Below are positions 13,168-64,000 of a DNA stretch of 64,000 nt, piece after piece. The position numbers were made by a program, and so were the translations under genes. Positions within the stretch are counted from its first letter, which is position 1. Each line of letters begins with the position of its first letter. The DNA lies in assembly GCA_027077805.1 (NCBI GenBank), contig JALWTS010000033.1:62001-126000 (forward strand), given 5' to 3'. Below the pieces are notes generated by a model. The model ran no database searches and was not told the DNA's origin. It saw only the letters and a program-made list of their open reading frames with translations. The stretch is from Gammaproteobacteria bacterium (GTDB lineage: Bacteria > Pseudomonadota > Gammaproteobacteria > JABHGC01).

Positions 13168-15663
13168 ATGGGTAATCCATCCAACAATCAATTACAACAA
13201 GAGTTGTCAAGTCTACAAACCAATTATCTAAAAAAATTGCCGCGTGATGTGAGACAAATGCTAAATTTATGGCAAAAGCTGTTATATGTTGATTGGCATG
13301 AGGAGGCATTTAATATTTTATATAAGATCAACCATACGCTTGCAAGTAATGCAGGGACCTTAGGGTATCCTAAAATTAGTGAAGTTGCTCATGCCTTAGA
13401 ACTAGAATTTATCCCCTTATCTAAAACATTATGCCCTCCAAATGCAGAGCAAAAAGAACGAATTAATTTACTTCTAGGCAATTTAAAAAAGTTAGTTTTA
13501 AATGAAAAACCTGAAACAGAATTAAAATCAAAAGTAGATGACAGCAGAGAAAAACTTAGAGTTAAAGCTCATCAAAAAGAACTGGTTTTTATTATTGATC
13601 CTGATCCTGAATTATCGCAATATTTAGCCATATTTTTACAACGCTTTGGTTATAAAACAAAAGTATTTTCTGAGTTTGAAGATATGTTTGCGATGTTAGG
13701 CGCTGTGCCTAACGTGATTATTTCTGAAGTCGTGTTTCCGCAAGGGAGTTTATACGGTATTGAACAAATGAAAAATATCAAATCGGAACTCCCCGAAAAT
13801 ATTACCATATTATTTATGTCATTTCGGGGAGATTTAACCGCACGTCTTCAGGCGATTGAGGCAGGCGGAGAAGTTTATTTTAATAAGCCAGTGAATGTTT
13901 ATGATATTGTAGAAAAATTAGACGATATTGTCGCACAAAAGAAAGAATCAATTTTCCGAGTGCTAATTGTAGAAGATGATAAAACCCAGTCATCTTATTA
14001 TGCGGTATTATTAAAACATGCGGGTATGATTACCGAACAGGTGAACAAGCCAAAACAATTGTTGGAAGTACTGCATGATTTTCAGCCTGATACGATTTTA
14101 ATGGATATGCATATGCCTGATTATTCAGGGATTTTATTAGCTGACATGATTCACCAAATGCCTGAATATTTAACAATACCTGTCGTATTTTTATCCTCAG
14201 AAGAAGACCCGGAATTAAAACTAGAAGCGATGGTAAAAGGTGGCGATATTTTTTTAAGCAAACCTATTACGCCTAAACATTTGGTGATGGCATTAAAAAG
14301 TCGGGTACATAGAGGTCGGCGTTTAAGTAACCGCATGCGTTATTTAAGTCAGAAAGATCAAGTAACAGGCTTATATAATCGCCGAGCATTTCTTGTTGAG
14401 TTAAACCATAAGATTACCCAGATTAAAATCACTCATCAAACGATGCTATTGTTTTATATTAAAATTGCGAATTTTGATGAAATCAAAAAAACGGTAGGCG
14501 ATTGGGGGATGGAATTATTGTTATCCGAAATTTCACAAAAATTATGTCAGTATTTGATTAAAGAACCATTGTTAGGGAAAGTGAATGAAACCAGCTTTGC
14601 CTTATTGGTCAATCAAGACGATGTTGAGGATATTGTTGAGTATAGCGAAAAGATTAAAAAACTGATTGAAAAAGGAATTTATCAAATTAAACAAGCCTCA
14701 GTAACGGTAAGTTGTCATATTGGTATTGTGAATATTTTAGATGAAAAGCGGGAAGCGACGGAAATGTTAGCTTTAGCCAGTGATGCTTGTGAACAATCCC
14801 ATTCAAATTTACACAAAATTTATTTATTAGAAACCGATGCTTTAGAAAAACATGAATCAGGATTATCTGAAACCCAAATCGTACAGCTAGTTAGAACCGC
14901 ATTAGATAAAAATCAGTTTCGTTTAAACTATCAACCGATTGCGAATTTACAAGATGATCATTTGGAAAAATATGAAGTATTAATTCGTATGCTTGGTCGA
15001 AATAAACAGCAAATTTCTCCAAGCAAATTTATGCCAGTAGCAGAACGTTATGGTTTAACCGTTAGAATTGATCGTTGGGTAATTTATAATGCCATTAATG
15101 TTTGTTCATTAATGCAAAAAAATGGCAGAGAGGTTGAGTTTTTTGTTAAAATTACGCATGCCTCTTTAGCCGATCAAACTTTGATGCCTTGGGTTAAAAA
15201 ACAATTTAAAACCTTTCATGTTGAACCCAAGCGTCTGGTGTTTGAAATTTCAGAAGCCACTGCTGCCTCTTATTTATTATTTTCACAATCTTTTTCGCAA
15301 GAAATTAAAGACATTGGTTGTGGGGTTGCTTTAGAACATTTTGGTAGTACTCAGCAATCATTTCAAATCGCAGAACATTTACAACTTGATTATATTAAAC
15401 TTTCGGGTAAATACACGCAAGATTTAAAAGAAAAATCTGACAATCAAGAAAAGATTAGAGAATATGCCAAACTTGCCAATGCAAGAGGTATTGAAGTGAT
15501 TGCGGAACTTGTCGAAAGTGCGGATAGTCTTTATGTTTTATGGCAATGTGGGATTCAGTACATCCAAGGTAATTTTTTACAAGCACCGGATGATTCTTTA
15601 AGCTTTGAGTTTAATTTTCAGCCTGATGGTGGAAATGGAGAGGTAGGTCAATCGGAAGATTGA
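13168..15663 (+). CDS. FimX-like Hpt-REC-REC-GGDEF-EAL signalling protein
   Basis: An 831-residue cytosolic multidomain protein. Residues about 15-115 are an Hpt domain (H56 in INHTLASNAGTLG). About 140-255 is a receiver in which the phosphoacceptor Asp is replaced (IISE187). About 265-380 is an intact receiver (LMD313MHMP). About 390-550 is a GGDEF domain with a ruined signature (NETSF near 473-477), so cyclase activity is not expected. About 570-820 is an EAL domain with E603-V-L and LEHFGS in place of DDFG, suggesting c-di-GMP binding rather than hydrolysis. FimX of P. aeruginosa, a c-di-GMP-binding twitching regulator, also has a degenerate GGDEF and EVL; the pil-chp genes in this window fit that role. 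The FimX homology is inference. The ribosome site is an eight-G tract two bases from the ATG. Confidence 0.85.
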   Translation: MGNPSNNQLQQELSSLQTNYLKKLPRDVRQMLNLWQKLLYVDWHEEAFNILYKINHTLASNAGTLGYPKISEVAHALELEFIPLSKTLCPPNAEQKERINLLLGNLKKLVLNEKPETELKSKVDDSREKLRVKAHQKELVFIIDPDPELSQYLAIFLQRFGYKTKVFSEFEDMFAMLGAVPNVIISEVVFPQGSLYGIEQMKNIKSELPENITILFMSFRGDLTARLQAIEAGGEVYFNKPVNVYDIVEKLDDIVAQKKESIFRVLIVEDDKTQSSYYAVLLKHAGMITEQVNKPKQLLEVLHDFQPDTILMDMHMPDYSGILLADMIHQMPEYLTIPVVFLSSEEDPELKLEAMVKGGDIFLSKPITPKHLVMALKSRVHRGRRLSNRMRYLSQKDQVTGLYNRRAFLVELNHKITQIKITHQTMLLFYIKIANFDEIKKTVGDWGMELLLSEISQKLCQYLIKEPLLGKVNETSFALLVNQDDVEDIVEYSEKIKKLIEKGIYQIKQASVTVSCHIGIVNILDEKREATEMLALASDACEQSHSNLHKIYLLETDALEKHESGLSETQIVQLVRTALDKNQFRLNYQPIANLQDDHLEKYEVLIRMLGRNKQQISPSKFMPVAERYGLTVRIDRWVIYNAINVCSLMQKNGREVEFFVKITHASLADQTLMPWVKKQFKTFHVEPKRLVFEISEATAASYLLFSQSFSQEIKDIGCGVALEHFGSTQQSFQIAEHLQLDYIKLSGKYTQDLKEKSDNQEKIREYAKLANARGIEVIAELVESADSLYVLWQCGIQYIQGNFLQAPDDSLSFEFNFQPDGGNGEVGQSED

Positions 15664-40695: not shown

Positions 40696-42684
40696 ATGGA
40701 GACAATCACCGAATTTCATTTTTTACGACCTTATTTATTATTATTACTATTACCATTCGCTTGCTTATTATGGTGGTTAAAACAACAACCGTTAAAATCG
40801 AATTGGCAAGCTGTCTGTGATCCCGAATTATTACAATATTTAACTTTGAATACGGTCAAAGTTACATCGTATTATTTTGGATTGCTAAGTTTTGCTGCTA
40901 TGCTTGCCATCATTGCGATGGCAGGTCCAACTTGGCAACAATTACCACAACCTGTTTTTAAACAACAATCTGCATTGGTGATTGCTTTAGATTTATCATT
41001 ATCTATGCAGGCAACGGATATTAAGCCTAGTCGCTTACAACAAGCAAAATATAAATTATTGGATTTATTAGAACAACGCACAGAAGGTGAGACCGCCTTG
41101 TTAGTTTATGCTGCTTGGCCATTTGTGGTGACGCCTTTAACGGATGATACTAAAACGATTGCTTCTCAAGTGCCAGTATTAGATTCAGGGCTAATGCCAC
41201 AACAAGGTTCAAGGACGGATAGAGTCATTAATAAAGCATTGGATTTATTACAACAAAGTGCTTATCCACAAGGTGATATTTTATTGATCACTGATGGTGT
41301 GAGTACGACTGACCTTGATACGAGATTATTAAGACGATTACAACAAAGTCAAGTCCATTTATCAATATTAGGGGTTGGGACGACAGAAGGCGGGCCAATT
41401 AATTTAAAACAAGGGGGATTTTTAAAGGATGAACAAGGCGGTATTGTCATAAGCAAATTACCCGTATCAAAATTACAAGCATTAGCACAGCAATTTCAAG
41501 GGCGTTATCATAGTATTAGTGTGGATGATAACGATATTCAATATTTATTGGCGGGTTTCACTAGTACAGACGAAAATTTAGAGTTATCAGACTTAAAATC
41601 GGATCAATGGCGAGAATTTGGGCCTTGGTTATTATTATTGATATTACCCATTATTGCCTTAACTTTTCGTAAGGGCTTTGTATTATTAGTATTAGTTGTG
41701 ATTTTAGTGCCAAAACCGAGCTGGGCTTGGCATTGGGATAGTTTATGGCAAAATCAAAACCAACAAGCCCAACACGCGTTAGAACAACAGAAATTTAAGC
41801 AAGCTGCCCAATTATTTACGGATCCTGCTTGGCAAGCAACCGCTTTATATAAAGCAGGCGATTATCAGCAAGCGGCTGAGCAATTTGGGCAATTAAATAC
41901 TGCGGATGGTTTTTATAATCAAGGCAATGCCTTAGCGAAACTGCAACAGTTTGAGCAAGCAATTCAAGCGTATCAAAAGGCTTTAGAAAAAAATCCACAA
42001 CATCAAGATGCTAAAGATAATTTGAAAGTGATTGAAGATTCTTTAAAACGACAAGAACAACAACAGCAACAGCCATCACAATCACAACAAGATTCTGCCG
42101 AACAAGAACAAGAGAAATCAGCATCCCAACAATCGCAACAAGATTCTGCTGAACAAGAACAAGAGAAATCAGCATCCCAACAATCGCAACAAGATTCTGC
42201 CGAACAAGAACAAGAGAAATCAGCATCCCAACAATCGCAACAAGATTCTGCCGAACAAGAACAAGAGAAATCAGCATCCCAACAATCGCAACAAGATTCT
42301 GCTGAAAAAAAACAAGAGAAATCAGCATCCCAACAATTGCAACAAGATTCTGCTGAAAAAAAACAAGAGAAATCAGCATCCCAACAATTGCAGTCAGATG
42401 CCTCTCAACAAAAGGATGTTGATCAACAAGCCTCTGAACAAAATCAAACTAAAAACGAAGCAACAGCCGAACAACAGCAAGCGGAATTAGCAGAACAGCA
42501 ACAAGATTCAGACAATCAATACAATCAAGCTGAACTAGATTACAAGGATCAGTTATCAAAACAACAGTTAAAACAATGGTTGCAACGGATTCCAGATCAA
42601 CCTAGTATCCTATTACAACGTAAATTTCGTTATCAATATCAACAACAGTATCAACAACAACGTACTGAGGAACAAGCATGGTAA
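40696..42684 (+). CDS. BatB/BatC-like VWA plus TPR protein with tandem repeats
   Basis: A 662-residue protein. Two N-terminal transmembrane helices (about 12-28, 58-76) precede a VWA domain (about 92-290) with intact MIDAS (D99-L-S-L-S; LLITDGVSTTD). A transmembrane hairpin (about 313-345) and TPR repeats (about 355-450; FYNQGNALAKLQQFEQAIQAYQKALEKNP) follow. A Gln/Glu/Ser-rich tail contains six copies of a 17-residue repeat, then a basic aromatic end. The fusion joins what are separate BatB and BatC in other bacteria. The stop overlaps the BatD ATG by seven bases. Confidence 0.92.
   Translation: METITEFHFLRPYLLLLLLPFACLLWWLKQQPLKSNWQAVCDPELLQYLTLNTVKVTSYYFGLLSFAAMLAIIAMAGPTWQQLPQPVFKQQSALVIALDLSLSMQATDIKPSRLQQAKYKLLDLLEQRTEGETALLVYAAWPFVVTPLTDDTKTIASQVPVLDSGLMPQQGSRTDRVINKALDLLQQSAYPQGDILLITDGVSTTDLDTRLLRRLQQSQVHLSILGVGTTEGGPINLKQGGFLKDEQGGIVISKLPVSKLQALAQQFQGRYHSISVDDNDIQYLLAGFTSTDENLELSDLKSDQWREFGPWLLLLILPIIALTFRKGFVLLVLVVILVPKPSWAWHWDSLWQNQNQQAQHALEQQKFKQAAQLFTDPAWQATALYKAGDYQQAAEQFGQLNTADGFYNQGNALAKLQQFEQAIQAYQKALEKNPQHQDAKDNLKVIEDSLKRQEQQQQQPSQSQQDSAEQEQEKSASQQSQQDSAEQEQEKSASQQSQQDSAEQEQEKSASQQSQQDSAEQEQEKSASQQSQQDSAEKKQEKSASQQLQQDSAEKKQEKSASQQLQSDASQQKDVDQQASEQNQTKNEATAEQQQAELAEQQQDSDNQYNQAELDYKDQLSKQQLKQWLQRIPDQPSILLQRKFRYQYQQQYQQQRTEEQAW
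42076..42405 (+). repeat. 51-bp tandem repeat, six units plus a partial one
   Basis: Units begin at 42076, 42127, 42178, 42229, 42280 and 42331, each exactly 51 bases, with a partial seventh from 42382. Middle units are almost identical at DNA level; the first and the last two differ by a few bases. Each encodes 17 residues of the form QQSQQDSAEQEQEKSAS, so unit gain or loss keeps the reading frame of the BatB/C gene. Confidence 0.95.
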
Positions 42685-50156: not shown

Positions 50157-50455
50157 AAAATATTTTGCCAATTAAAAATCAATATTCTATCATGTTTATG
50201 AGCTTTGAAAAGATTTTGGATTTCGTAAAAAATTTTCAGTATTTTTTAGTTCTTGGTATAAAATTAAATAAAATTTAGTTGTGAATTATAAAATCATGCA
50301 CTACATTTAAAGCAGGATTTGGCTAAAGGTTTAGTGAAATTTCAAGCAATTTTACTATATTTATTACAAATAATGTTGCAGTTAGCATAATTCGTTGAGT
50401 AATTTTTGATTTAATGAGAATGAATCTTAACACATAACATAAATGAGGAGTGCCG
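50157..50455. promoter_or_regulatory. divergent intergenic region gshA / pilG
   Basis: A 299-base AT-rich stretch without a credible reading frame. It must hold the gshA and pilG promoters. No clear sigma-54 -24/-12 pair, palindrome or terminator is visible; the only firm element is the pilG ribosome site GAGGA at 50445-50449. Confidence 0.5.
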
Positions 50456-50848
50456 GTGGCAGAGCATGCAGTAGAACCCGATATTGCGGGGTTAAAGATT
50501 ATGGTGGTAGATGATAGTAAAACTATCCGTCGGACTGCTGAAACTTTATTAAAAAAGGCAGGATGCGAAGTAATTACCGCAATCGATGGGTTTGAAGCAT
50601 TATCCAAAATTGTGGATAACAAACCCCATGTTATTTTTATTGATATTATGATGCCACGTTTGGATGGTTATCAAACCTGTGCTTTAATTAAACATAATAG
50701 GGATTATAAAGCAACACCAGTCATTATGTTATCAAGTAAGGATGGTTTGTTTGATAGAGCAAGGGGTCGGATTGTCGGTTCTGAAGAATATTTAACTAAA
50801 CCTTTTACCAAAGATGAATTATTAGGGGCAATTCGAAAATACTCTTGA
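50456..50848 (+). CDS. pilG: twitching motility response regulator PilG
   Basis: A 130-residue single-domain receiver. It is nearly identical in key segments to P. aeruginosa PilG: KIMVVDDSKTIRRTAETLLKKAG, FIDIMMPRLDGYQTCALIKHN and TPVIMLSSKDGLFDRARGRIVGSEEYLTKPFTKDELLGAI. PilG takes phosphate from ChpA and promotes pilus extension. The GTG at 50456 is six bases after GAGGA; an in-frame GTG at 50450 touches the ribosome site and is less likely. First gene of the Pil-Chp chemosensory set. Confidence 0.96.
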   Translation: MAEHAVEPDIAGLKIMVVDDSKTIRRTAETLLKKAGCEVITAIDGFEALSKIVDNKPHVIFIDIMMPRLDGYQTCALIKHNRDYKATPVIMLSSKDGLFDRARGRIVGSEEYLTKPFTKDELLGAIRKYS

Positions 50849-50951: not shown

Positions 50952-51371
50952 ATGAGGTGGTTATTTGGTTTGTTTAAGCCAAGAAAGGGAAAAAACCGGA
51001 TGGCACGTGTATTAATTGTCGATGATTCTCCAACAGAAACTCATGTTCTAAAATCAATTTTGGAACGCAATGGTTATGAAACTTTATCTGCACCTAACGG
51101 TGAAGAAGGTATTGAAACGGCAAGACAGGAACGCCCTGATCTCATATTGATGGATGTGGTGATGCCTGGTTTAAATGGCTATCAAGCCACGCGACGTTTG
51201 AGTCGTGATCCCGTTACATCTTCAATTCCTGTGCTAATTGTAACCACGAAAAATCAGGAAACAGATAAGGTTTGGGGTTTAAGACAAGGTGCAAAAGGAT
51301 ATATTGTGAAACCTGTGTCTGAGCATGAGTTAATGTCTAAAATTAAAGCTGTTTTACCTACGGGGAGATAG
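50952..51371 (+). CDS. pilH: twitching motility response regulator PilH
   Basis: A 139-residue receiver with ARVLIVDDSPTETHVLKSILERNGY, LMDVVMPGLNGYQATRRL and PVLIVTTKNQETDKVWGLRQGAKGYIVKP, the PilH pattern. PilH works with PilG downstream of ChpA and is linked to retraction. The ATG at 50952 has AGGTGA just upstream and gives a 16-residue N-terminal extension (MRWLFGLFKPRKGKNR) absent in P. aeruginosa PilH; an internal ATG at 51000 would give the classic start. The extension is aromatic and basic and might touch the membrane. Confidence 0.95.
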   Translation: MRWLFGLFKPRKGKNRMARVLIVDDSPTETHVLKSILERNGYETLSAPNGEEGIETARQERPDLILMDVVMPGLNGYQATRRLSRDPVTSSIPVLIVTTKNQETDKVWGLRQGAKGYIVKPVSEHELMSKIKAVLPTGR

Positions 51372-51380
51372 TTGGTGGGA

Positions 51381-51929
51381 ATGCCAAATATGCAAGACCC
51401 ATTTGATGTTTTGGTCAATATAGAGAATAAAAGCAGAAAGTATGCTCTCGTACCCGAACAGGAAAAAATGGAAGAATTGTGGCCGGGAATTGCCTTTAAA
51501 GTATGTGATGCTAAGGTAGTTTCACCCGTTGGGCAGATCACTGAAATTATTCACTATCCAGAGCCTTCCATCATTCCGGGTACTAAGATATGGATGAAAG
51601 GAATTGCGAATATTCGGGGTAGTTTAGTCCCTATTGTTGATTTGCAAGCATTTTTATGTGGTCATGTAATCGTTCCTAATCCACGAAGTCGCTTATTGAT
51701 GGTTGAGCATCAAAAACAAGATACCGTCTATCCCTTAGGTTTATTAATTGCTGATGTAATAGGGATGAAACAGTTTCGGCATGAGGAATCTTCCTCTAAT
51801 ATTGCAATGTATTCGGATTTTTTTCAACCTTATATGAAAGAATCATTTTACAGAGAAAAGGAGCGATGGGGTGTATTTGATATGACTATTTTATTACAAA
51901 ATCCTGACTTTTTGGAAGTGACATTATAA
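51381..51929 (+). CDS. pilI: CheW-like adaptor PilI
   Basis: A 182-residue CheW-domain protein coupling the receptor PilJ to the kinase ChpA. Family pattern: QDPFDVLVNIENKSRKYAL at the start, WPGIAFKVCDAKVVSPVGQITEII, GTKIWMKGIANIRGSLVPIVDLQAFL and a C-terminal FYREKERWGVFDMTILLQNPDFLEV. A GGTGGGA ribosome site lies 1 base upstream of the ATG at 51381 and about 9 before an ATG at 51390, so either may be used. It is 9 bases after the pilH stop. Confidence 0.93.
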   Translation: MPNMQDPFDVLVNIENKSRKYALVPEQEKMEELWPGIAFKVCDAKVVSPVGQITEIIHYPEPSIIPGTKIWMKGIANIRGSLVPIVDLQAFLCGHVIVPNPRSRLLMVEHQKQDTVYPLGLLIADVIGMKQFRHEESSSNIAMYSDFFQPYMKESFYREKERWGVFDMTILLQNPDFLEVTL

Positions 51930-52032: not shown

Positions 52033-54078
52033 ATGAAATCCATTGCCACCAATGATGCTTTGCAACGAATTACTGCAAATCGACTGACTGTTATCTTATC
52101 AACTTTACTTTTGTTAGTAATTACTTTAGCTCTGATCACCTTTATCTATGTTGCCCAATGGGAGTTACATGACAAAGGATATCTTAACCGTGCGGGGGAG
52201 CAAAGAGTATTATCTCAACAAATTGCAAAATACGCACTTGCGGCGGCAAGTGGTAAAAAGGAAGCCTTTCGTCAATTAGAAGCCTCACGCAATCGTTTTG
52301 ATGAAATTTTACAAGAGTTAAAAAACGGAATTCCTGGCAAATTACCTGCTTCTCCTAAGGATATCAATGACATTTTAGCAGATGTTGAATCTCAGTGGCG
52401 CATATTACGGGAAAATGCAGACGAAATTTTAAGTGGTGAGAATCCAATTACTTCTGTGGGGGAGTGGGTTAATGTGATCACTGAGTTAATGCCACAATTG
52501 CAAGATACTGCAGCATCTGTCGCAAAAGTTTTAGTAAAGCAAGGGGCTGATCCTCGTCAAGTTTATATTGCAACTCGTCAATTGATGTTAGCACAACGAA
52601 TTCAAAATAATGTGAATCAGGTATTAGCGGCAAGTAATGTTGAAACAGAACAATCAGTGGAACAATTTAAACGTGATTCCGATTTATTTGGACGGGTTTT
52701 AGAGGGCATGTTTAAAGGGGATGAAAAACTAAAAATCACCAAAGTGGAAGGTCCTGCTGAGCGACGTTTGGGTGATGTGGCAATGTTGTTTGTTACTATT
52801 CATGATCATGCCGAGGAGATCATTCAAACGACACCTAAAGTCATTCCTGTATTAAGAGCAGCCGTAAAATCAACTGAGGTTAGTGATTCGTTAGATCAGG
52901 CTACGAAAGAATTGATTGTTGCTTATGGTACATCACCTGGTCGTTTAAGTATTGGTCCTATGAAAGTTGGTACGAATTTGATTATTATCTTGGGTGGTTT
53001 TGCCTTACTTTTATTGGTAATTTTAGGTATTCACTTATTATTTGAATCACGTCGTCGTGAGCGTGTGAGTGATGAAATGAACCAACGCAACCAAAAAGCG
53101 ATTTTGCGTTTGATGGATGAGATGGATGCCTTAGCCGATGGTGACTTAACGGTACATTGTACCGTAACAGAAGATGATACGGGAGCGATTGCAGATGCAA
53201 TTAACAACGCCATTGAAACCTTAAGACGATTAGTAAAAACGATTAACACTACTTCAGAGCAGGTATCGGCTTCAGCACAAGAAACTCGGGCAACCGCAAT
53301 GCACTTAGCCGATGCAACCGAACACCAAGCCCAACAAATTAGTGGGGCGAGTCAGGCGATTCAACAAATGGCAGACTCCATTGATCAGGTCTCACAAGAT
53401 GCGACAGATACCGCGCAAGTCGCACAGCAATCGCTGATTACTGCAAATAAAGGAGCGGATAAAGTACGTTCTACCATTAATGGTATGGATTCCATTCGTG
53501 AGCAAATCCAAGAGACTTCAAAACGGATTAAGCGTTTAGGGGAAAGTTCGCAGGAAATTGGAGATATTGTAGAGTTGATTGATGATATTGCGGATCAAAC
53601 CAATATCTTAGCCTTAAATGCTGCCATGCAGGCGGCAATGGCAGGTGAGGCAGGTCGAGGTTTTGCTGTGGTAGCCGATGAGGTGCAACGCTTAGCTGAG
53701 CGTTCTGGTAACGCGACCAAACAGATTGAGGCACTGGTAAAAACGATTCAGGCGGATACCAATGAAGCAGTAAGTTCAATGGAATTAAGTACCGCAGGGG
53801 TAGTGAGTGGTGCACGTCTCGCAGAGGATGCGGGTGATACTTTAGAAGAGATTCAAAACGTATTTAAACAAGTGGTAAACTTAACCCAACGGATTTCTGA
53901 GGCATCACAACAACAGGTATCTTCAGCCACTAATATTTCTGATACTATGAATGTGATTCAGGAAATTACGAAACAGACTTCAGATGGTACAACCCAAACA
54001 GCACGTTCAATTGGACGATTGGCTGATTTGGCCGACGATCTACAGAAATCTGTATCCGGTTTCCGATTACCAACCTAG
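52033..54078 (+). CDS. pilJ: chemoreceptor PilJ
   Basis: A 681-residue methyl-accepting receptor for type IV pilus chemosensing. Transmembrane helix 1 lies at about 18-42. Two PilJ sensor repeats follow ([20 protein letters not shown] near 57-76; [20 protein letters not shown] near 187-206). Transmembrane helix 2 lies at about 315-335, then a HAMP segment and the cytosolic signalling hairpin with [42 protein letters not shown]. It senses pilus-related or lipid cues and controls ChpA through PilI. GGGAGA lies nine bases before the ATG. pilK, which follows pilJ in P. aeruginosa, is absent; a strong terminator is found instead. Confidence 0.95.
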
Positions 54079-57200: not shown

Positions 57201-60050
57201 AGTTATTTGGAACAATTAAGAGAAAATGTTGAACAAGCCAGTAATGATATGAGTCATGATCGGGTTGAAGAAGAGCTTAAAGCGGATGTTTTAGATGATG
57301 AATTATTAACTATTTTCCTAGAAGAATGTTCTGATTTATTAGAAACTTTAGATGCTTCGCTACAGAGTTTTGTGGCAGAACCTACTAATATGAAATTTGT
57401 TGCTGATTTACAGCGTTCGTTACATACCATTAAGGGCAACGCGAAAATGTCTGGGTTTGAAATCATGGCAGATTTAACCCATAGTTTTGAGACTATGTTA
57501 ACTGCTGTGAGTCAAGGTAAATTAACCGTGTCAGAACCAGTCATTGATTTAAGTCATCAAGCGACAGATGGTTTGATTAATATGTTAGATACTATTGCCA
57601 CAAAACAAGACTTAGTGCCTGCTACTGCCTTAATTAATGATCTGGAAAATATTGTTAAGGAAGTCCCTGACACTGGTATTTCTGAGCGTGATCCATTGCT
57701 AGACAGTGAAAATATTGGTGGTGATACTGTTATTGAAGGTATTAGTAATACTGTGAGTGAATCTTTAACGGATTTAGTTGATACATCTGATGCCGATATT
57801 TCTATGGAAACTTTGGCTCAAGATTTACAACAAATTTCAGAAACTTTAACGACAGCTGAGTCTGATAGTCAATTAACTGTAAGTGATAGCCAAAAGCAAG
57901 TCAGCGAAATTGTGGAACAGCCACTTGATAGTTCTGAGCAAGTATCAGAAACAACTGAAACCATCGCTGAGTCAATTGAGCTAAGTAGTCAAGACCAAGC
58001 ACATCATTCTAAGGAGGCAAAAACCCAAAATACTGTTACTCCGCTTGAAACAAAATCACAACCCAAAGATCAACTTGAAGATTTTGTTAAAGCCTTGCCA
58101 AAATCAGTCATGACAAATCTTCAAACGGATCAACAACAAACTTCGATATCTAAACCTGTTAATAAAAAAGTTGAGGAAGAAGACATGGCCAAAGTTAAGA
58201 CGCCTAAAAGAGTTGCCCAAGAGCAAATTAAAGTTCGTGCGGATTTACTAGATGATATGGTGAATTATTCTGGGGAAATCAGTATTTATCGTGCCCGTTT
58301 AGAACAACAAAATGGTACGTTTCGATTTAACTTAACTGAGCTATCACAAACCGTTGCTCGCTTGCGTGAACAATTACGCAAGTTTGAAATTGAAACAGAA
58401 GCTCAAATGTTATTTCGTTATGAAAAAAATGCCCCTGATTCCAAAGATGAAGAGTTTGATCCCTTAGAAATGGATAGATTTTCTAATATGCAGCAGCTTT
58501 CTCGAAGTTTATTAGAAAGTATTAGCGATTTGGTGAGTATTCAGGAGATTATGGAAAATCTTAGTCGTGAATCTGAAACCTTATTACTACAACAATCACG
58601 AGTGATTACTGAATTACATGAAGGTTTGATGCGAACTCGTATGGTTCCTTTTTCTAGCATGGTACCTAGAATGAACCGCTTGGTCAGACAAACTTGTAAT
58701 CAATTAAACAAGAAAGTGGAACTAGAAGTCGTTGGTGCAGAAGGTGAAATGGATAGAACCATTCTTGATGGTATGATGGCGCCTTTAGAACATATGATTC
58801 GGAATGCTATTTCACATGGTATTGAAACCCCTGATGATAGAAAAGCAAAAGGTAAACCAGAGACAGGTAAAATTACTTTAACTTTATCTCGTGATGGTAC
58901 TGATATTGTGTTAGATATTGCTGATGATGGGGCAGGTATTCCCGTTGATGTGGTAAAAAATAAAGCCATTAAAGCAGGAATTTATACTCAAGAAGAAGCC
59001 GATCAAGCACCTAAAGAGGATATTTTACGTTTGATTTTACATTCTGGTCTAAGTACTGCTCAACAAATTACCCAGATTTCTGGACGTGGTGTTGGCATGG
59101 ATGTGGTGAATAGTGAAATTAAACAATTAGGTGGTGTATTAGAAATTGGCTCAGAAAAAGATAAAGGTTCGCAATTTACCATTCGCTTACCATTTACATT
59201 GGCAATTAACCAAGCCTTACTCGTTCAAGTTAATGAGGATGTGTATGCCGTACCTCACTCTAGTATTGATGGTGTGGTAAGGCTTTCTAGGGAAGAATTA
59301 GAACGTTCTTATACTAAGGATAAGGAATACGAATATGCAGGTCATAAATATCATGTACAACATTTATGTACCCTGTTAGGTAGTGCACAACCTTCACTAC
59401 CAGAACAAGGGCGATGGTTTCCAGTATTACTAGTGCGTTCAGGGCAACATAGGGTAGCATTACAAGTGGATGCATTAATGGGAAATAGAGAAATTGTAGT
59501 GAAATCAGTCGGGCCCCAGTTAAGTAATGTCAACTGGATATCAGGAGCGACAATTCTTGGCGATGGTCGTGTCGTATTGATTTTGGATGTAACTACTTTG
59601 GTTAGAATAGGGGCAATTAAAACACCTGATGAGGCAACGCCTGTTGAACAAAAAGTAGAGGAACAACGTCAACAAATCACAGTAATGGTTGTAGATGATT
59701 CGATCACCGTAAGAAAAGTTACCACCCGTTTATTAGAACGTCATGGCATGAATGTCTTTACGGCTAAAGATGGGGTGGATGCCGTTGGTAAACTACAAGA
59801 TCAAGTTCCTGATATTATGTTGTTAGATATTGAAATGCCCAGAATGGACGGTTATGAGTTAGCACAACATGTTCGTAATAACGAACGTTTAAGAGATATT
59901 CCCATTATTATGATTACCTCTAGGCATGGTGAAAAACATAGACAAAGGGCAATGGAAATTGGGGTAAATAGTTATTTAGGTAAACCTTATCAAGAAGCAG
60001 AGTTGTTGGATAATATTCATTCTTTATTAACTTCAACTCATTCAGTTTAA
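54234..60050 (+). CDS. chpA: ChpA: multi-Hpt CheA-type kinase with CheW and receiver domains
   Basis: A 1938-residue sensor kinase of the pilus chemosensory system, shorter than P. aeruginosa ChpA (about 2470). The N-terminal 560 residues are FimL/Hpt-like segments with degenerate motifs (H52-GVLQ; H486-IIWG). Three Hpt domains follow: H697-TMKG (about 660-770), H918-TLHG (870-980) and H1064-TIKG (1020-1130). A Ser/Glu-rich linker runs to about 1320. Next come the CheA dimerisation helices (VRADLLDDMVNYSGE), the ATPase (N-box RNAISHG near 1523, DDGAGIP, GRGVGMDVV), CheW (about 1615-1760) and a C-terminal receiver with D1865. It phosphorylates PilG and PilH. Only two of its Hpt motifs are fully canonical. 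Confidence 0.96.
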   Translation: MNDTIDYSAIKWIKTEVDETLKLAGHALEQYMESGFDLDELDALAKLLHQVHGVLQMVGLYGAVQLLEEMSHVISGLKQDVIARKEDAVEVLSRAILQIPDYLERLQAGSKDIPLVLLPLMNDLRASRGDNLLSEEALFSPNLSNFKHNQVYQQDQVENDLSALAKSLRHNYQRGLLSWYQGEAKEGLKRIQDVLEVLENSATFLPVKKLWWVCSGLVDALINDDLESSVAVKLLVGHVDRQILKYLIDYDESRLANNLPENLLKNLLYYIARSNRGSQIVNQIKDEFALDRALPSEAELSSAQADLSAPTVDMLRTVIVAIKEDLAGVKDVLDLYIRVGQNQDELSKLQESLRKIADTLGMMGQGGLRQKMMDQIEYLASLLSADTKIKDDSIMNVASELLVIETALDGLLTGKIALFESGYDQDEMNADLSLDGSVPEVEFQRVLGMVLHEITIEIGRAKDAIIEYIDNPSKYQLLENTPNSFHIIWGAFEILGMDRINLSLDSISQYITTNLLENKIEPSQDHSNYLADAITGIEYYVEAVDEGRPYRSDILAMIEESVATLGYPIENNDPDLTVRHDEAEYSTPELTENDISTQQSSEVDDNAVELAPLEFESSHADGQTDSNVVEASLAEPMVVIPEAVAPVELVMGDVDDEIKEIFIEEALEVLEDIKTYYPQWKATGDKEALTIFRRAFHTMKGSGRMVQALTISELAWAIENLLNRVIDETVEITDALYQVMDSVIDVLPIVVDAYQHGTAITIDLETIQAKANALSEGQAEDVVASMSLESINAVEIPETDAEESVAETDEAMSFELESTEESTDSESEQDQTMSLDLEALGIESEQEQTIVDADIGYDIEAIDFAEQAPAQPRMDATLLSIFQQETKGHTDVIQSFISQAGETGDDLRCNESLKRALHTLHGSAHMAEVTPIAKVSRQLEYIVKSLLLSKRPVNAEIIQALEKGMGIIADVMDYLADDKLAEPEYQPFVSYLEQLRENVEQASNDMSHDRVEEELKADVLDDELLTIFLEECSDLLETLDASLQSFVAEPTNMKFVADLQRSLHTIKGNAKMSGFEIMADLTHSFETMLTAVSQGKLTVSEPVIDLSHQATDGLINMLDTIATKQDLVPATALINDLENIVKEVPDTGISERDPLLDSENIGGDTVIEGISNTVSESLTDLVDTSDADISMETLAQDLQQISETLTTAESDSQLTVSDSQKQVSEIVEQPLDSSEQVSETTETIAESIELSSQDQAHHSKEAKTQNTVTPLETKSQPKDQLEDFVKALPKSVMTNLQTDQQQTSISKPVNKKVEEEDMAKVKTPKRVAQEQIKVRADLLDDMVNYSGEISIYRARLEQQNGTFRFNLTELSQTVARLREQLRKFEIETEAQMLFRYEKNAPDSKDEEFDPLEMDRFSNMQQLSRSLLESISDLVSIQEIMENLSRESETLLLQQSRVITELHEGLMRTRMVPFSSMVPRMNRLVRQTCNQLNKKVELEVVGAEGEMDRTILDGMMAPLEHMIRNAISHGIETPDDRKAKGKPETGKITLTLSRDGTDIVLDIADDGAGIPVDVVKNKAIKAGIYTQEEADQAPKEDILRLILHSGLSTAQQITQISGRGVGMDVVNSEIKQLGGVLEIGSEKDKGSQFTIRLPFTLAINQALLVQVNEDVYAVPHSSIDGVVRLSREELERSYTKDKEYEYAGHKYHVQHLCTLLGSAQPSLPEQGRWFPVLLVRSGQHRVALQVDALMGNREIVVKSVGPQLSNVNWISGATILGDGRVVLILDVTTLVRIGAIKTPDEATPVEQKVEEQRQQITVMVVDDSITVRKVTTRLLERHGMNVFTAKDGVDAVGKLQDQVPDIMLLDIEMPRMDGYELAQHVRNNERLRDIPIIMITSRHGEKHRQRAMEIGVNSYLGKPYQEAELLDNIHSLLTSTHSV

Positions 60051-60113
60051 GAATAAGAAGTAAGAACAAGAAGTAAGAACAAGAAGTAAGAAGAATAATA
60101 AGAAGAAGAAAAA
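60048..60113 (+). repeat. 13-bp purine-rich tandem repeat between chpA and the next gene
   Basis: Starting at the chpA stop codon, the unit TAAGAACAAGAAG occurs at 60061-60073 and 60074-60086, preceded by TAAGAATAAGAAG (60048-60060) and followed by a shortened copy and an AAGAAGAAG tract. The top strand is purine-only except for T and C at fixed places. The unit length is not a multiple of three, and each unit carries a TAA. Confidence 0.85.
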
Positions 60114-60150
60114 GTTTTGTTTTTAGATTATTTTGAGATAGGTAAATAAG

Positions 60151-63100
60151 ATGGCAGAAGCAGTTCAACAAATTGTTCGTAGTATGTTTATTCCTTATGG
60201 TAACAGCCAACTCGTGTTGCCTAACGTTGCTATTGCTGAGATTATTTCTTTTGTTGAACCAGAAATGGCACCAGGTACGCCAACATGGTTACTTGGTGGT
60301 CTTATTTGGCGAGATAAAGTTGTGCCTTTGGTCTCATTTGATGAACTTTGTGGTGAAGCCTGGACTCGCTCTGGGCCAAGAAAAAATCGGATTGCAATTT
60401 GTCACACTTTAAGTGATAACTCTGAAGTGGAATTTATTGCGTTTGTGGTAACAGGGACGCCATCTTTAATTCAAATTAAACGTGATTCTATTAAAGGTGA
60501 AGTGAGGAGTAAAAATGAATCTCCTGTGATTTTATATCATGTTATGGTTGGCAACAATACGGCGATTATTCCCAATCTAGTCGAGTTGGAGAATATGCTG
60601 AAAATGTATATTACGCCATTGAGAACTTATGCTCAAGAAGCCTTGGAACGCAAGAAAAAACCTGAACTTAAACCATTGGATCTTGGGGATGTTGATGAAG
60701 AAATCGTAGAAATCTTTATTGAAGAAGCTCAAGAAAATATGGCACTAATTCAAGAATATTATCCAAAATGGAGAGAGACGGGTGATGAAGAGGCCTTAAC
60801 GATGTTTAGACGTTCATTTCATACTATTAAGGGAAGTGGACGCATGGTTAATGTTGACTTTATTAGTGAATTAGCATGGTCAGTGGAAAATATGTTAAAC
60901 CGATTAATTGATAATAGCATTCAGGTCACGCCAGCTTTATATAGTGTCATGGATGATGTATTAAGCGTCTTACCAACTTTAATCCAGTTTTTCGTGGATA
61001 GATATTATCCTGATATTGATGTGCAAGCCTTACGAGATCGTGCCGATGCTTTAAGTCGAGGGGAAGAAATTGAGGCGACGTCAGTCTTTGATCAATCAGT
61101 GGAAACATCAAAAGCACAATTACAGCCACAATCCACTGCGGATATCGATGAAGACTTATTAGAAGTCTTCTTAGAAGAAGGTCAAGAATTGATTGATAAT
61201 ATTGAAACTGCGTTTCAATCCTGGAAACAATCCCCTAATGATGAAGCAATTATTGCTGGTTTACATCGTTCTTTACATACGTTAAAAGGCAGTGCTAGAT
61301 TAACTGGTTTGACAGTGATGGGGGATATTAGTCATGCTTTAGAATCTTTATTAAATGCCGTAGGTGACAAGAAAATTGCCGTGTCTGAAGAAGTCGTTAC
61401 TGTTGCAAATACGACGGTTGATCATTTATCAGTCATGTTAGAAAAGATTAAACAAAACAATATTCCCGATTCGGATTATGGTTTAGTGGCTGAGATCGAA
61501 GCATTGTTATCACCTCCTGATGATGCAGAAGAACAAGAGATTGATCCTGAATTAGTAGAAATCTTTTTAGAAGAAGGTCAAGATTTGATAGAAAGCATTG
61601 AACAAACTTTCCAAGAATGGAAACAACAACCGAATGATCATCAGTTAATTTCAAGTTTACATCGTAGTTTACATACTTTGAAGGGAGGGTCTCGCTTAGC
61701 AGGAATTAAAGTGATTGGTGATGTGAGTCATATGTTTGAGTCTATGTTAACTGCTGTATCTGAAGGACGACTTAAGGTCGATGATGAAGTGATTACAATG
61801 GCAAATACTACCATTGATAGTTTAGTTTCAATGTTAGATCAAGTCAAAGGAGGGAATATCCCAGATTCTGATTATGGTTTGACCACAGAAATTGAGGCAA
61901 TTTTATTTGCACCCACAGAACAAAGTGAGGATGACGTTGATCCAGACCTATTAGAGGTATTTTTAGGCGAAGCTCAAGAATTAGTCAATCAAATTGATCA
62001 CATTTTTCAAGATTGGAAAGTGAAACCTGAGGAACCTAATATCATTGCAGAACTTTATCGGGCCTTACATACTTTAAAGGGTGGGGCAAGACTGGCAGGA
62101 TTAACGGCAATTGCGAACTTAAGTCATAGCATTGAATCTGTGTTAACTTCAATTAGCGAGCATCGTTTAACCGTTTCAGATGACATTACTCGTGTGACTG
62201 AATTAACAGTTGATAATTTAGCTTCAATGGTAGAGTTGACACAACAAGGTGAGGTCCCTGATATTGATCAAGATTTATTAGCACAGATAGAACAAATATT
62301 AGAACGATCAACGGCACCAGAAGACAAAATTGACAAAGATTTATTAAGTGTTTTTGTTGATGAAGGTCAGGAATTAATGGATGCCATTGAGACTACCTTC
62401 CAAAAATGGAATGATAATCCGAATGATGTTGAAGTCATTGCTAGTTTAAAACGTTCGTTACATACTTTAAAAGGGGGAGCAAGACTCTCTGGTTTAGATA
62501 TTATGGGGGAACTCAGCCATGCTTTAGAATCGTTGTTAGGTGCCGTGGAAGAGCATCGTTTGCAAGCGTCTGATTCTATTATCCAACTGGCAAATATGGC
62601 AGTAGATGGGCTTGCATCTATGCTGGAAATATTACAACAAGGCGATATTCCAAGCAGTGATAATGGTTTGCTCATTGAAATTGAGGCGGTATTACCAAAA
62701 GCAGCGTTTGAGTCCGATGAAGAAGTTGATCCTGAGTTAGTCGCTATTTTTCTACAAGAAGCTCATGATTTGGTGGATAATGTTGATGCTAATTTCCAAA
62801 CTTGGAAAACTGATTCTTACAACAATGAATTAATTGCCGATTTACATAGAGCTTTACACACTTTAAAAGGGGGGGCAAGGTTAGCGGGATTAACTGTTAT
62901 TGGAAATTTAACACATGCAATTGAGTCGGTATTTACTGCGGTAGGTGAGCGTCAACTCGCAGTATCTGAGCATATTACTGAGGTTGTAAGTGCTGCTATT
63001 GATCATTTGGCAACTATGTTAGAACTTGTGGAAAAAAATATTATACCTACCTCTGATCAAGGCTGGATTGAGAAAATTGAGGCTATTTTAGAAAATGTGG

Positions 63101-64000
63101 CCACTACAAGTGTAGGTAATAGTGTGGATGATATTAGCGATACATTGCTTGCTGGTGATGGTGATACGGAGCTAACTGTTGCTGATGATCAAGTCGTTGA
63201 TGCAGGTGATGAGGAAGATGACGTTGATGAATTACTGCAAGTATTTTTAGAGGAAGGGCAAGACTTATTTGATGGGATTGATACCAGCTTCAAAGAATGG
63301 TTAAGTAATCCAACGGATCCAAATATTATCGCTGATTTACATCGTTTTTTGCATACTTTAAAAGGTAATGCAAGATTATCTAGTTTTATTGTCATGAGCG
63401 ATGTTGCTCATGCTTTAGAATCTTTGTTTATTGCTTTAGGTGAACATCAATTGCAAATTTCCGAGGATATTTTAGATATTGCTAGTCAAACCTTAGACCA
63501 TTTAACTTATATGTTTCACCAAGTGAAACAAGGCGAAATACCACAATCTGACAATGACTTAGTGGCGAAAATTGAAGATTTATTTAATGTAGTAGCAGTT
63601 GACGAAGAAGAAATTGATGAGGATTTATTAGAAATCTTTTTGGAAGAAGGTCAGGAGTTATTAGATGCCATTGAATTAAGTTTTCAAGATTGGATGGAAC
63701 AACCGACTGACGCGGGTATTATTGCTGATTTACATCGTTCCTTACATACGTTAAAAGGCAGTTCCAGATTAGCAGGATTAAAGGTTATTGGCAATTTAAG
63801 TCATGCTTTGGAGTCAATGTTTACTTCAATTGGCGAGAATAAAATGCCTGCAACTGATGCCATTATGAAGTTAGCAAATCAGGGGGTTGATCAACTAGTT
63901 GCAATGTTAGAGCAGATTGAGGGTGTGAGTACCATTCCTGATTCTGATCAAGGTTTAGCAGAAAGAATTAAATATTTGGTATCACATCCTGATAAAGTGG
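60151..64000 (+). CDS. ChpC-like CheW domain fused to at least eight tandem Hpt domains (partial)
   Basis: An open frame from the ATG at 60151 to the window end (1283 codons, no stop). Residues 1-155 form a CheW-like domain resembling P. aeruginosa ChpC (SMFIPYGNSQLVLPNVAIAE; WLLGGLIWRDKVVPLVSFDELCG). Eight Hpt domains follow with phosphoacceptors H224, H376, H508, H640, H771, H903, H1068 and H1199, all in H-T-(I/L)-K-G. Five of the seven intervals are 131-132 residues; the others are 152 and 165. Each Hpt of copies 2-8 begins with an acidic D-x-D/E-LL-x-x-F-L-E-E-G-Q stretch. The first Hpt closely resembles ChpA's H697 domain; copies 2-8 resemble its H1064 domain. An AGGT site lies upstream. 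Being next to chpA, it probably shuttles or buffers phosphate in pilus signalling. What follows the last Hpt, such as a kinase core, is unknown. Confidence 0.93.
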   Translation, partial: MAEAVQQIVRSMFIPYGNSQLVLPNVAIAEIISFVEPEMAPGTPTWLLGGLIWRDKVVPLVSFDELCGEAWTRSGPRKNRIAICHTLSDNSEVEFIAFVVTGTPSLIQIKRDSIKGEVRSKNESPVILYHVMVGNNTAIIPNLVELENMLKMYITPLRTYAQEALERKKKPELKPLDLGDVDEEIVEIFIEEAQENMALIQEYYPKWRETGDEEALTMFRRSFHTIKGSGRMVNVDFISELAWSVENMLNRLIDNSIQVTPALYSVMDDVLSVLPTLIQFFVDRYYPDIDVQALRDRADALSRGEEIEATSVFDQSVETSKAQLQPQSTADIDEDLLEVFLEEGQELIDNIETAFQSWKQSPNDEAIIAGLHRSLHTLKGSARLTGLTVMGDISHALESLLNAVGDKKIAVSEEVVTVANTTVDHLSVMLEKIKQNNIPDSDYGLVAEIEALLSPPDDAEEQEIDPELVEIFLEEGQDLIESIEQTFQEWKQQPNDHQLISSLHRSLHTLKGGSRLAGIKVIGDVSHMFESMLTAVSEGRLKVDDEVITMANTTIDSLVSMLDQVKGGNIPDSDYGLTTEIEAILFAPTEQSEDDVDPDLLEVFLGEAQELVNQIDHIFQDWKVKPEEPNIIAELYRALHTLKGGARLAGLTAIANLSHSIESVLTSISEHRLTVSDDITRVTELTVDNLASMVELTQQGEVPDIDQDLLAQIEQILERSTAPEDKIDKDLLSVFVDEGQELMDAIETTFQKWNDNPNDVEVIASLKRSLHTLKGGARLSGLDIMGELSHALESLLGAVEEHRLQASDSIIQLANMAVDGLASMLEILQQGDIPSSDNGLLIEIEAVLPKAAFESDEEVDPELVAIFLQEAHDLVDNVDANFQTWKTDSYNNELIADLHRALHTLKGGARLAGLTVIGNLTHAIESVFTAVGERQLAVSEHITEVVSAAIDHLATMLELVEKNIIPTSDQGWIEKIEAILENVATTSVGNSVDDISDTLLAGDGDTELTVADDQVVDAGDEEDDVDELLQVFLEEGQDLFDGIDTSFKEWLSNPTDPNIIADLHRFLHTLKGNARLSSFIVMSDVAHALESLFIALGEHQLQISEDILDIASQTLDHLTYMFHQVKQGEIPQSDNDLVAKIEDLFNVVAVDEEEIDEDLLEIFLEEGQELLDAIELSFQDWMEQPTDAGIIADLHRSLHTLKGSSRLAGLKVIGNLSHALESMFTSIGENKMPATDAIMKLANQGVDQLVAMLEQIEGVSTIPDSDQGLAERIKYLVSHPDKV

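Follow-up and report, generated by a model that had tools for sequence, protein, structure and literature searches.

In Pseudomonas aeruginosa, the kinase of the type IV pilus (Tfp) chemosensory system, ChpA, autophosphorylates on Hpt4-6, of which Hpt5 and Hpt6 load its receiver; the receiver exchanges phosphoryl groups with Hpt2-6, while PilG and PilH are charged chiefly by Hpt2 and Hpt3 (PMC5812489). Why Tfp-class CheA kinases bear long Hpt chains is an open question (PMC12632253, PMC10782961). In Rhodobacter sphaeroides, phosphoryl transfer is divided between proteins, as CheA4 loads in trans CheA3, which carries Hpt and CheW domains but no kinase core (PMC10782961, PMC2924250). Here we describe a gene that joins a ChpC-type CheW domain to nine Hpt domains (CheW-Hpt9) and starts at position 60151 of a 64,000-nucleotide stretch of the draft genome of an uncultured gammaproteobacterium (GenBank assembly GCA_027077805.1, contig JALWTS010000033.1, positions 62,001 to 126,000; hereafter the window). 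The fusion is a new combination of known parts, an adaptor and Hpt domains, with CheA3/CheA4 as functional precedent.

The fusion resembles ChpC, the small adaptor between the surface-sensing receptor and the pilus kinase, in its CheW domain, its conserved residues, its place downstream of chpA, and the presence of PilI as the second adaptor of the cluster. However, ChpC elsewhere is a stand-alone protein of ~150-200 amino acids (aa), whereas the fusion carries nine Hpts (three in a sister genus) and the intervening chpB is lost. Like CheA3, it combines CheW with phosphorylatable Hpt, lacks a core, and has a core-bearing partner, encoded here in the same gene cluster, the likeness being one of architecture only. 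CheA3 is derived from a CheA, has one active N-terminal Hpt, a decayed middle, and a C-terminal CheW, and works with a partner that lacks Hpt. The fusion has the opposite domain order, a CheW of ChpC origin, and nine Hpts that are all intact, and its partner ChpA retains three Hpts of its own. The Xpt domains of P. aeruginosa ChpA and those of CheA3 are partly decayed (PMC10782961), while none of the fusion Hpts is. Compared with the Hpt segment of ChpA, the fusion has matching classes in matching order, class I ahead of class III (defined below), but lacks class II, the degenerate N-terminal Hpts, and the dimerisation, ATPase, P5, and REC domains. CheV (CheW-REC) is also a CheW adaptor with a phosphorylatable module, in its case an Asp receiver, where the fusion has His phosphoacceptors and no REC. 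In the Synechocystis Hik36/Hik43 split kinase, Hpt and core reportedly also lie on separate proteins, but the separate Hpt protein is said to have no CheW and the core partner no Hpts.

The open reading frame (ORF) is still open at the window edge (64000), as an initial annotation made from the sequence alone had noted. Reading the 169-kb contig past the window gives a stop-terminated gene at 60151-64752 on the forward strand (4.6 kb, 1533 aa; L027:12151-16752, contig coordinates C33:122151-126752). The same annotation had counted "eight or more" Hpts; eight are indeed in the window, and the open-ended figure becomes nine, the ninth lying beyond the window just before the stop. Pfam identified CheW (aa 16-142, E 1.6e-10) and eight Hpt stretches (E 2e-112) in the window part, and one CheW (39.6 bits, cut-off 23.5) and nine Hpt stretches (E 9e-126) in the full 1533-aa protein, with no HATPase_c, H-kinase_dim, or REC. 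Weak Pfam matches to SesA, FAD_binding_2, HTH_35, and ExsD_C within the Hpt helices were disregarded, as no stretch passed alone. NCBIfam and PHROGs contained no family matching a CheW-multi-Hpt architecture. The H-T-(I/L)-K-G motif already read in the window Hpts is intact in all nine (H224, 376, 508, 640, 771, 903, 1068, 1199, and 1449). Judged from its sequence, CheW-Hpt9 is a real, selected, lineage-specific architecture, a predicted ChpC coupling protein that lacks a kinase but bears nine CheA P1-type phosphoacceptors, all intact.

The CheW domain retains the residues conserved in ChpC (P24, W46, G49, W53, R54, P59, P104, and P141). Its AlphaFold model has a pLDDT of ~92 across most of the domain, with solved CheW structures as top Foldseek matches, and a helix is predicted right after it (aa 143-168). 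A ChpA end lies upstream, within 1.5 kb and on the same strand, at 41 of 46 loci encoding stand-alone ChpC homologs, none of which (0/46) has a relative of Hpt1 nearby; the fusion likewise adjoins a complete ChpA with HATPase, CheW, and REC. The earlier view of a ChpC-like domain that is elsewhere stand-alone and here sits beside ChpA is thus upheld, as is that of canonical Hpts, and the domain is identified by homology as the ChpC adaptor. As the protein is not stand-alone and single-domain (1533 aa, nine Hpts), we class the fusion as ChpC-derived and not as an ordinary ChpC.

The active-site His, Lys, and Glu of CheA P1 are kept in all nine Hpts, these columns being invariant despite pairwise identities of 21-56%, a degree of conservation well beyond chance. 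Hpt2-9 keep the equivalents of Escherichia coli CheA His48, Lys51, His67, and Glu70, while Hpt1 keeps His, Lys, and Glu with a Trp at the His67 site. With dN/dS ratios between copies of ~0.2-0.5 (dS being near saturation for some pairs), the Hpt copies are under purifying selection. Hpt2 aligns with the P1 domains of Thermotoga CheA, Salmonella CheA, and R. sphaeroides CheA3, and the alignment covers the His48, Lys51, and His67/Glu70 equivalents. The predicted Hpt2-3 pair matches CheA P1 (TM 0.82 on the target, root-mean-square deviation 1.9), and the predicted Hpt1 is a helix bundle. The closest Protein Data Bank (PDB) structures to the Hpts are CheA P1 domains, R. sphaeroides CheA3 P1 among them.

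Across ChpA proteins, Hpts fall by order into three classes: I (HTLKGSGRMV...AW..EN), II (HT.HG or HTLKGSAHMA), and III (HTLKGGARMA...H..E). The fusion has class I followed by class III, without class II, and its Hpt2-9 belong to class III, the type adjoining the kinase core of ChpA. In trees, Hpt1 of both genomes that encode the fusion groups with the first canonical ChpA Hpt, from which it derives (96/100; 98 SH-aLRT in a second tree), and Hpt2-8 form one group (87/90; 94 in the second tree). This grouping, with the 393-396 nt spacing over Hpt2-6, indicates that Hpt2-8 most likely arose through tandem duplication within the lineage of the window genome after it parted from the sister genome. 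Hpt9, the two further Hpts of the sister genome, and the last Hpts of ChpA all fall in a broad class III whose branching order is unsettled in the trees. The Hpt segment of ChpA, minus class II, may thus have been copied onto ChpC. A relocation of ChpA's Hpts is unsupported, since the window ChpA has three Hpts with a His motif (HTMKG, HTLHG, and HTIKG) and its relatives three to seven, which argues that the array was added and not simply moved. Elsewhere, one ChpA has a duplicated class I Hpt at positions 1 and 3 (L134, G308:C45) and another has two consecutive class I Hpts (L140, G525), so Hpt classes duplicate independently in ChpA.

Two draft genomes stand for the order, the window genome (G000) and one from another genus (G001). 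The initial annotation had proposed a search for this architecture in relatives, and G001 does encode the same fusion, with CheW and three Hpts (630 aa, own stop) and 48-49% protein identity to the window protein across CheW-linker-Hpt1. A contig search with the fusion alignment as query returned this sister metagenome-assembled genome as sole match (JABHHM010000320.1, Methylococcales bacterium isolate SI037_bin4), and the window protein as single query returned no match. The CheW domain has a homolog in 161 of 369 class genomes; among the matches listed, every such frame outside the order is at most 335 aa long, i.e. stand-alone, the usual size being ~160 aa. When CheW plus Hpt1 was used as query against 398 phylum genomes and against the two orders with the best ChpC matches (26 genomes), no further fusion was found: short frames matched the CheW part only, and long ChpA-type frames the Hpt part only. 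Altogether, the CheW-Hpt fusion was unseen among ~790 further genomes beyond these two, and no description of a CheW-multi-Hpt adaptor was found in the open-access literature. In G001, a stand-alone REC gene (L102:387-764, reverse strand) follows the CheW-Hpt3 gene and is a possible dedicated partner.

These features make it somewhat probable that the fusion is an array-tethered auxiliary phosphodonor and buffer, loaded by ChpA in trans and drained to PilG and PilH. The CheW domain would seat the protein in the PilJ-PilI-ChpA array, where the P4 domain of ChpA would phosphorylate Hpt2-9 in trans, as CheA4 does CheA3. Phosphoryl groups would then exchange with the ChpA receiver to reach the class I Hpts (Hpt1 of the fusion and the first canonical Hpt of ChpA), which would pass them to PilG and PilH. 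A Pseudomonas-like ChpA (L138) carries five canonical Hpts, in turn of class I, II, III, III, and III, which would equal P. aeruginosa Hpt2 to Hpt6 by order and motif; on this mapping, Hpt2-9 of the fusion would be kinase-loaded acceptors and Hpt1 the output donor. The pool of acceptor histidines held in the array would rise from three to twelve (nine plus the three of ChpA), all served by one ChpA core. A larger pool would buffer and slow, or amplify, the PilG-P and PilH-P output independently of receptor methylation. A phosphate reservoir or relay bound to the array, as first imagined for this protein, would agree with its anatomy.

No match to CheB or CheR was found anywhere in the window genome (2.55 Mb, a 94%-complete draft), and receptor methylation seems to be absent there. 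This genome has only two methyl-accepting chemotaxis proteins (MCPs), in two Tfp-like systems, while G001 has three CheB and six CheR matches; the genome with both enzymes thus has three Hpts in its fusion and the one without has nine, a comparison of two data points only. Given the absence of CheR and CheB, phosphoryl buffering may partly replace methylation-based adaptation. We doubt the stronger proposal that a phosphoryl capacitor has replaced it outright, with CheR and CheB lost and sensory memory held as phosphate on adaptor histidines loaded by a neighboring kinase. The second pilus-type cluster of the genome (L152, G000:C1:24000-33012) comprises two REC proteins, a CheW, an MCP, and a CheA N-terminus with Hpt, cut at the contig edge; another locus (L151, G000:C28:64000-71046) starts at a contig edge with a CheA core-CheW-REC half and has two further CheW-like ORFs. 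The two are probably one locus split by assembly. This second CheA, seemingly without Hpt, was considered as a partner of the fusion and rejected, because its core ORF on C28 runs off the contig and C1 ends within the matching Hpt-bearing CheA N-terminus.

Several points weigh against an auxiliary donor loaded by ChpA. The class mapping was drawn from L138 and not from the PAO1 sequence, the localization in the array is deduced from the CheW domain alone, and the lack of CheB and CheR is read from an incomplete draft. Basic twitching of P. aeruginosa does not require ChpC (PMC12632253). Moreover, the G001 fusion lies on a 5.4-kb contig and not beside chpA, and with its own single REC gene, its partner there may differ.

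The Hpts could instead form a shared phosphorelay hub that takes phosphate from the receivers of Hpt-less hybrid kinases and feeds the pilus pathway, integrating several kinases on the array. A HisKA-HATPase-REC hybrid kinase without Hpt (its REC-like C-terminus read from the ORF) is encoded ~0.8 kb downstream of the fusion in the window genome, and in G001 a hybrid kinase without Hpt is divergent from the fusion gene, which the single REC gene follows; P. aeruginosa ChpA Hpt2-6 can also be charged from a REC domain (PMC5812489). We nevertheless find the hub unlikely. The sensor halves of the two neighboring kinases are unrelated, which argues against a single conserved hybrid-kinase partner, no common operon is shown with the downstream kinase ~800 bp away, and Hpt2-9 are of the CheA P1 type and not of the ArcB/HptB type, CheA P1 being their first PDB match. 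The initial suggestion of signals from several kinases is unsupported on the same ground: as Hpt2-9 are P1-type and most resemble the Hpts that adjoin the kinase core of ChpA itself, ChpA alone is likely the source of phosphate. The downstream hybrid kinase could be a second donor, although the sensor half of its counterpart in G001 is unrelated.

The nine Hpts could also serve mainly as a docking scaffold or sponge that binds PilG and PilH (or the receiver of ChpA) and gathers or sequesters them at the pole, with phosphorylation secondary. Multivalent tails favor recruitment, and of the nine Xpt domains in P. aeruginosa ChpA, four are unphosphorylated and have been suggested to act as a scaffold (PMC12632253). 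Yet unphosphorylated domains elsewhere, such as some P. aeruginosa Xpts and Hpt2 and Hpt3 of R. sphaeroides CheA3, have lost the His (PMC10782961), whereas the nine active-site His, Lys, and Glu are all kept here under purifying selection, so that a mainly structural role seems improbable. For a repetitive gene in a draft genome, one might suspect an artefact, be it a misassembly, repeats collapsed or expanded in assembly, or simply the N-terminus of a second, ordinary ChpA, but this is very hard to sustain. The same junction occurs in an independent genome of another genus at the protein identity given above, the longest exact repeat in the gene is 24 nt, and the copies have 61-72% DNA identity to a reference copy, making a short-read collapse unlikely; a misassembled junction was therefore rejected. 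The N-terminus of a second ChpA was rejected as well, since the gene stops ~0.8 kb short of the next large ORF and is not followed by a kinase core. The two outcomes that the initial annotation had named as fatal, an assembly join and an ordinary second kinase, thus both fell away.

The fusion places the Hpt chain on the adaptor and not on the kinase, with nine domains here and three in the sister genus, every active site kept, and no detectable receptor methylation in the lineage. It offers a natural experiment on the reason for the many phosphate-accepting domains of pilus kinases: by separating "many Hpts" from "kinase", it makes the buffer, relay, and scaffold ideas testable singly. It also adds a coupling protein bearing His phosphoacceptors to the known adaptors CheW and CheV.

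The cluster runs pilG-pilH-pilI-pilJ-chpA-fusion, all on one strand (Table 1). Relatives usually have chpB, a methylesterase gene, between chpA and chpC (PF01339 found in 5 of 5 tested), but it is absent from the gap between chpA and the fusion. A polypurine repeat, TAAGAACAAGAAG, occupies its usual place and could be a scar of chpB loss or influence translation.

Table 1 Features of the CheW-Hpt9 gene and the Pil-Chp cluster (window coordinates unless stated).
Feature	Position	Strand	Basis
pilG-like single REC	50450..50848	+	Pfam
pilH-like single REC	50952..51371	+	Pfam
pilI, stand-alone CheW	51372..51929	+	Pfam
pilJ chemoreceptor (PilJ + MCPsignal)	52033..54078	+	Pfam
chpA (Hpt, HATPase, CheW, REC), 1938 aa	54234..60050	+	ORF, Pfam
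chpA-to-fusion gap, 100 nt, mostly polypurine repeat TAAGAACAAGAAG x4.9 (repeat at 60048-60110)	60051..60150	+	
CheW-Hpt9 fusion gene	60151..64000 in window, stop at 64752	+	ORF, Pfam
CheW domain, ChpC type, aa 8-150	60172..60600	+	Pfam, ChpC-conserved columns, AlphaFold, Foldseek
Hpt1, His224, class I, sister to first canonical ChpA Hpt	60685..61050	+	motif, trees, predicted structure
Hpt2, His376, class III, H-K-H-E complete	61138..61470	+	motif, tree, alignment, predicted structure
Hpt3, His508, class III	61537..61869	+	motif, tree
Hpt4, His640, class III	61933..62265	+	motif, tree
Hpt5, His771, class III	62326..62658	+	motif, tree
Hpt6, His903, class III	62722..63054	+	motif, tree
Hpt7, His1068, class III	63217..63549	+	motif, tree
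Hpt8, His1199, class III	63610..63942	+	motif, tree
Hpt9, His1449	L027:16360-16700, past window end	+	motif, tree

Elsewhere in the window, a protein with a weak Hpt match followed by REC-REC-GGDEF-EAL (13168-15663) is a candidate cyclic di-GMP partner downstream of Hpt signaling. A VWA/TPR Bat-like protein (40696-42684) contains six nearly perfect in-frame 51-nt repeats (SQQDSAEQEQEKSASQQ; 42078-42392), which encode a Q/E/S-rich tract that is apparently expanding recently.

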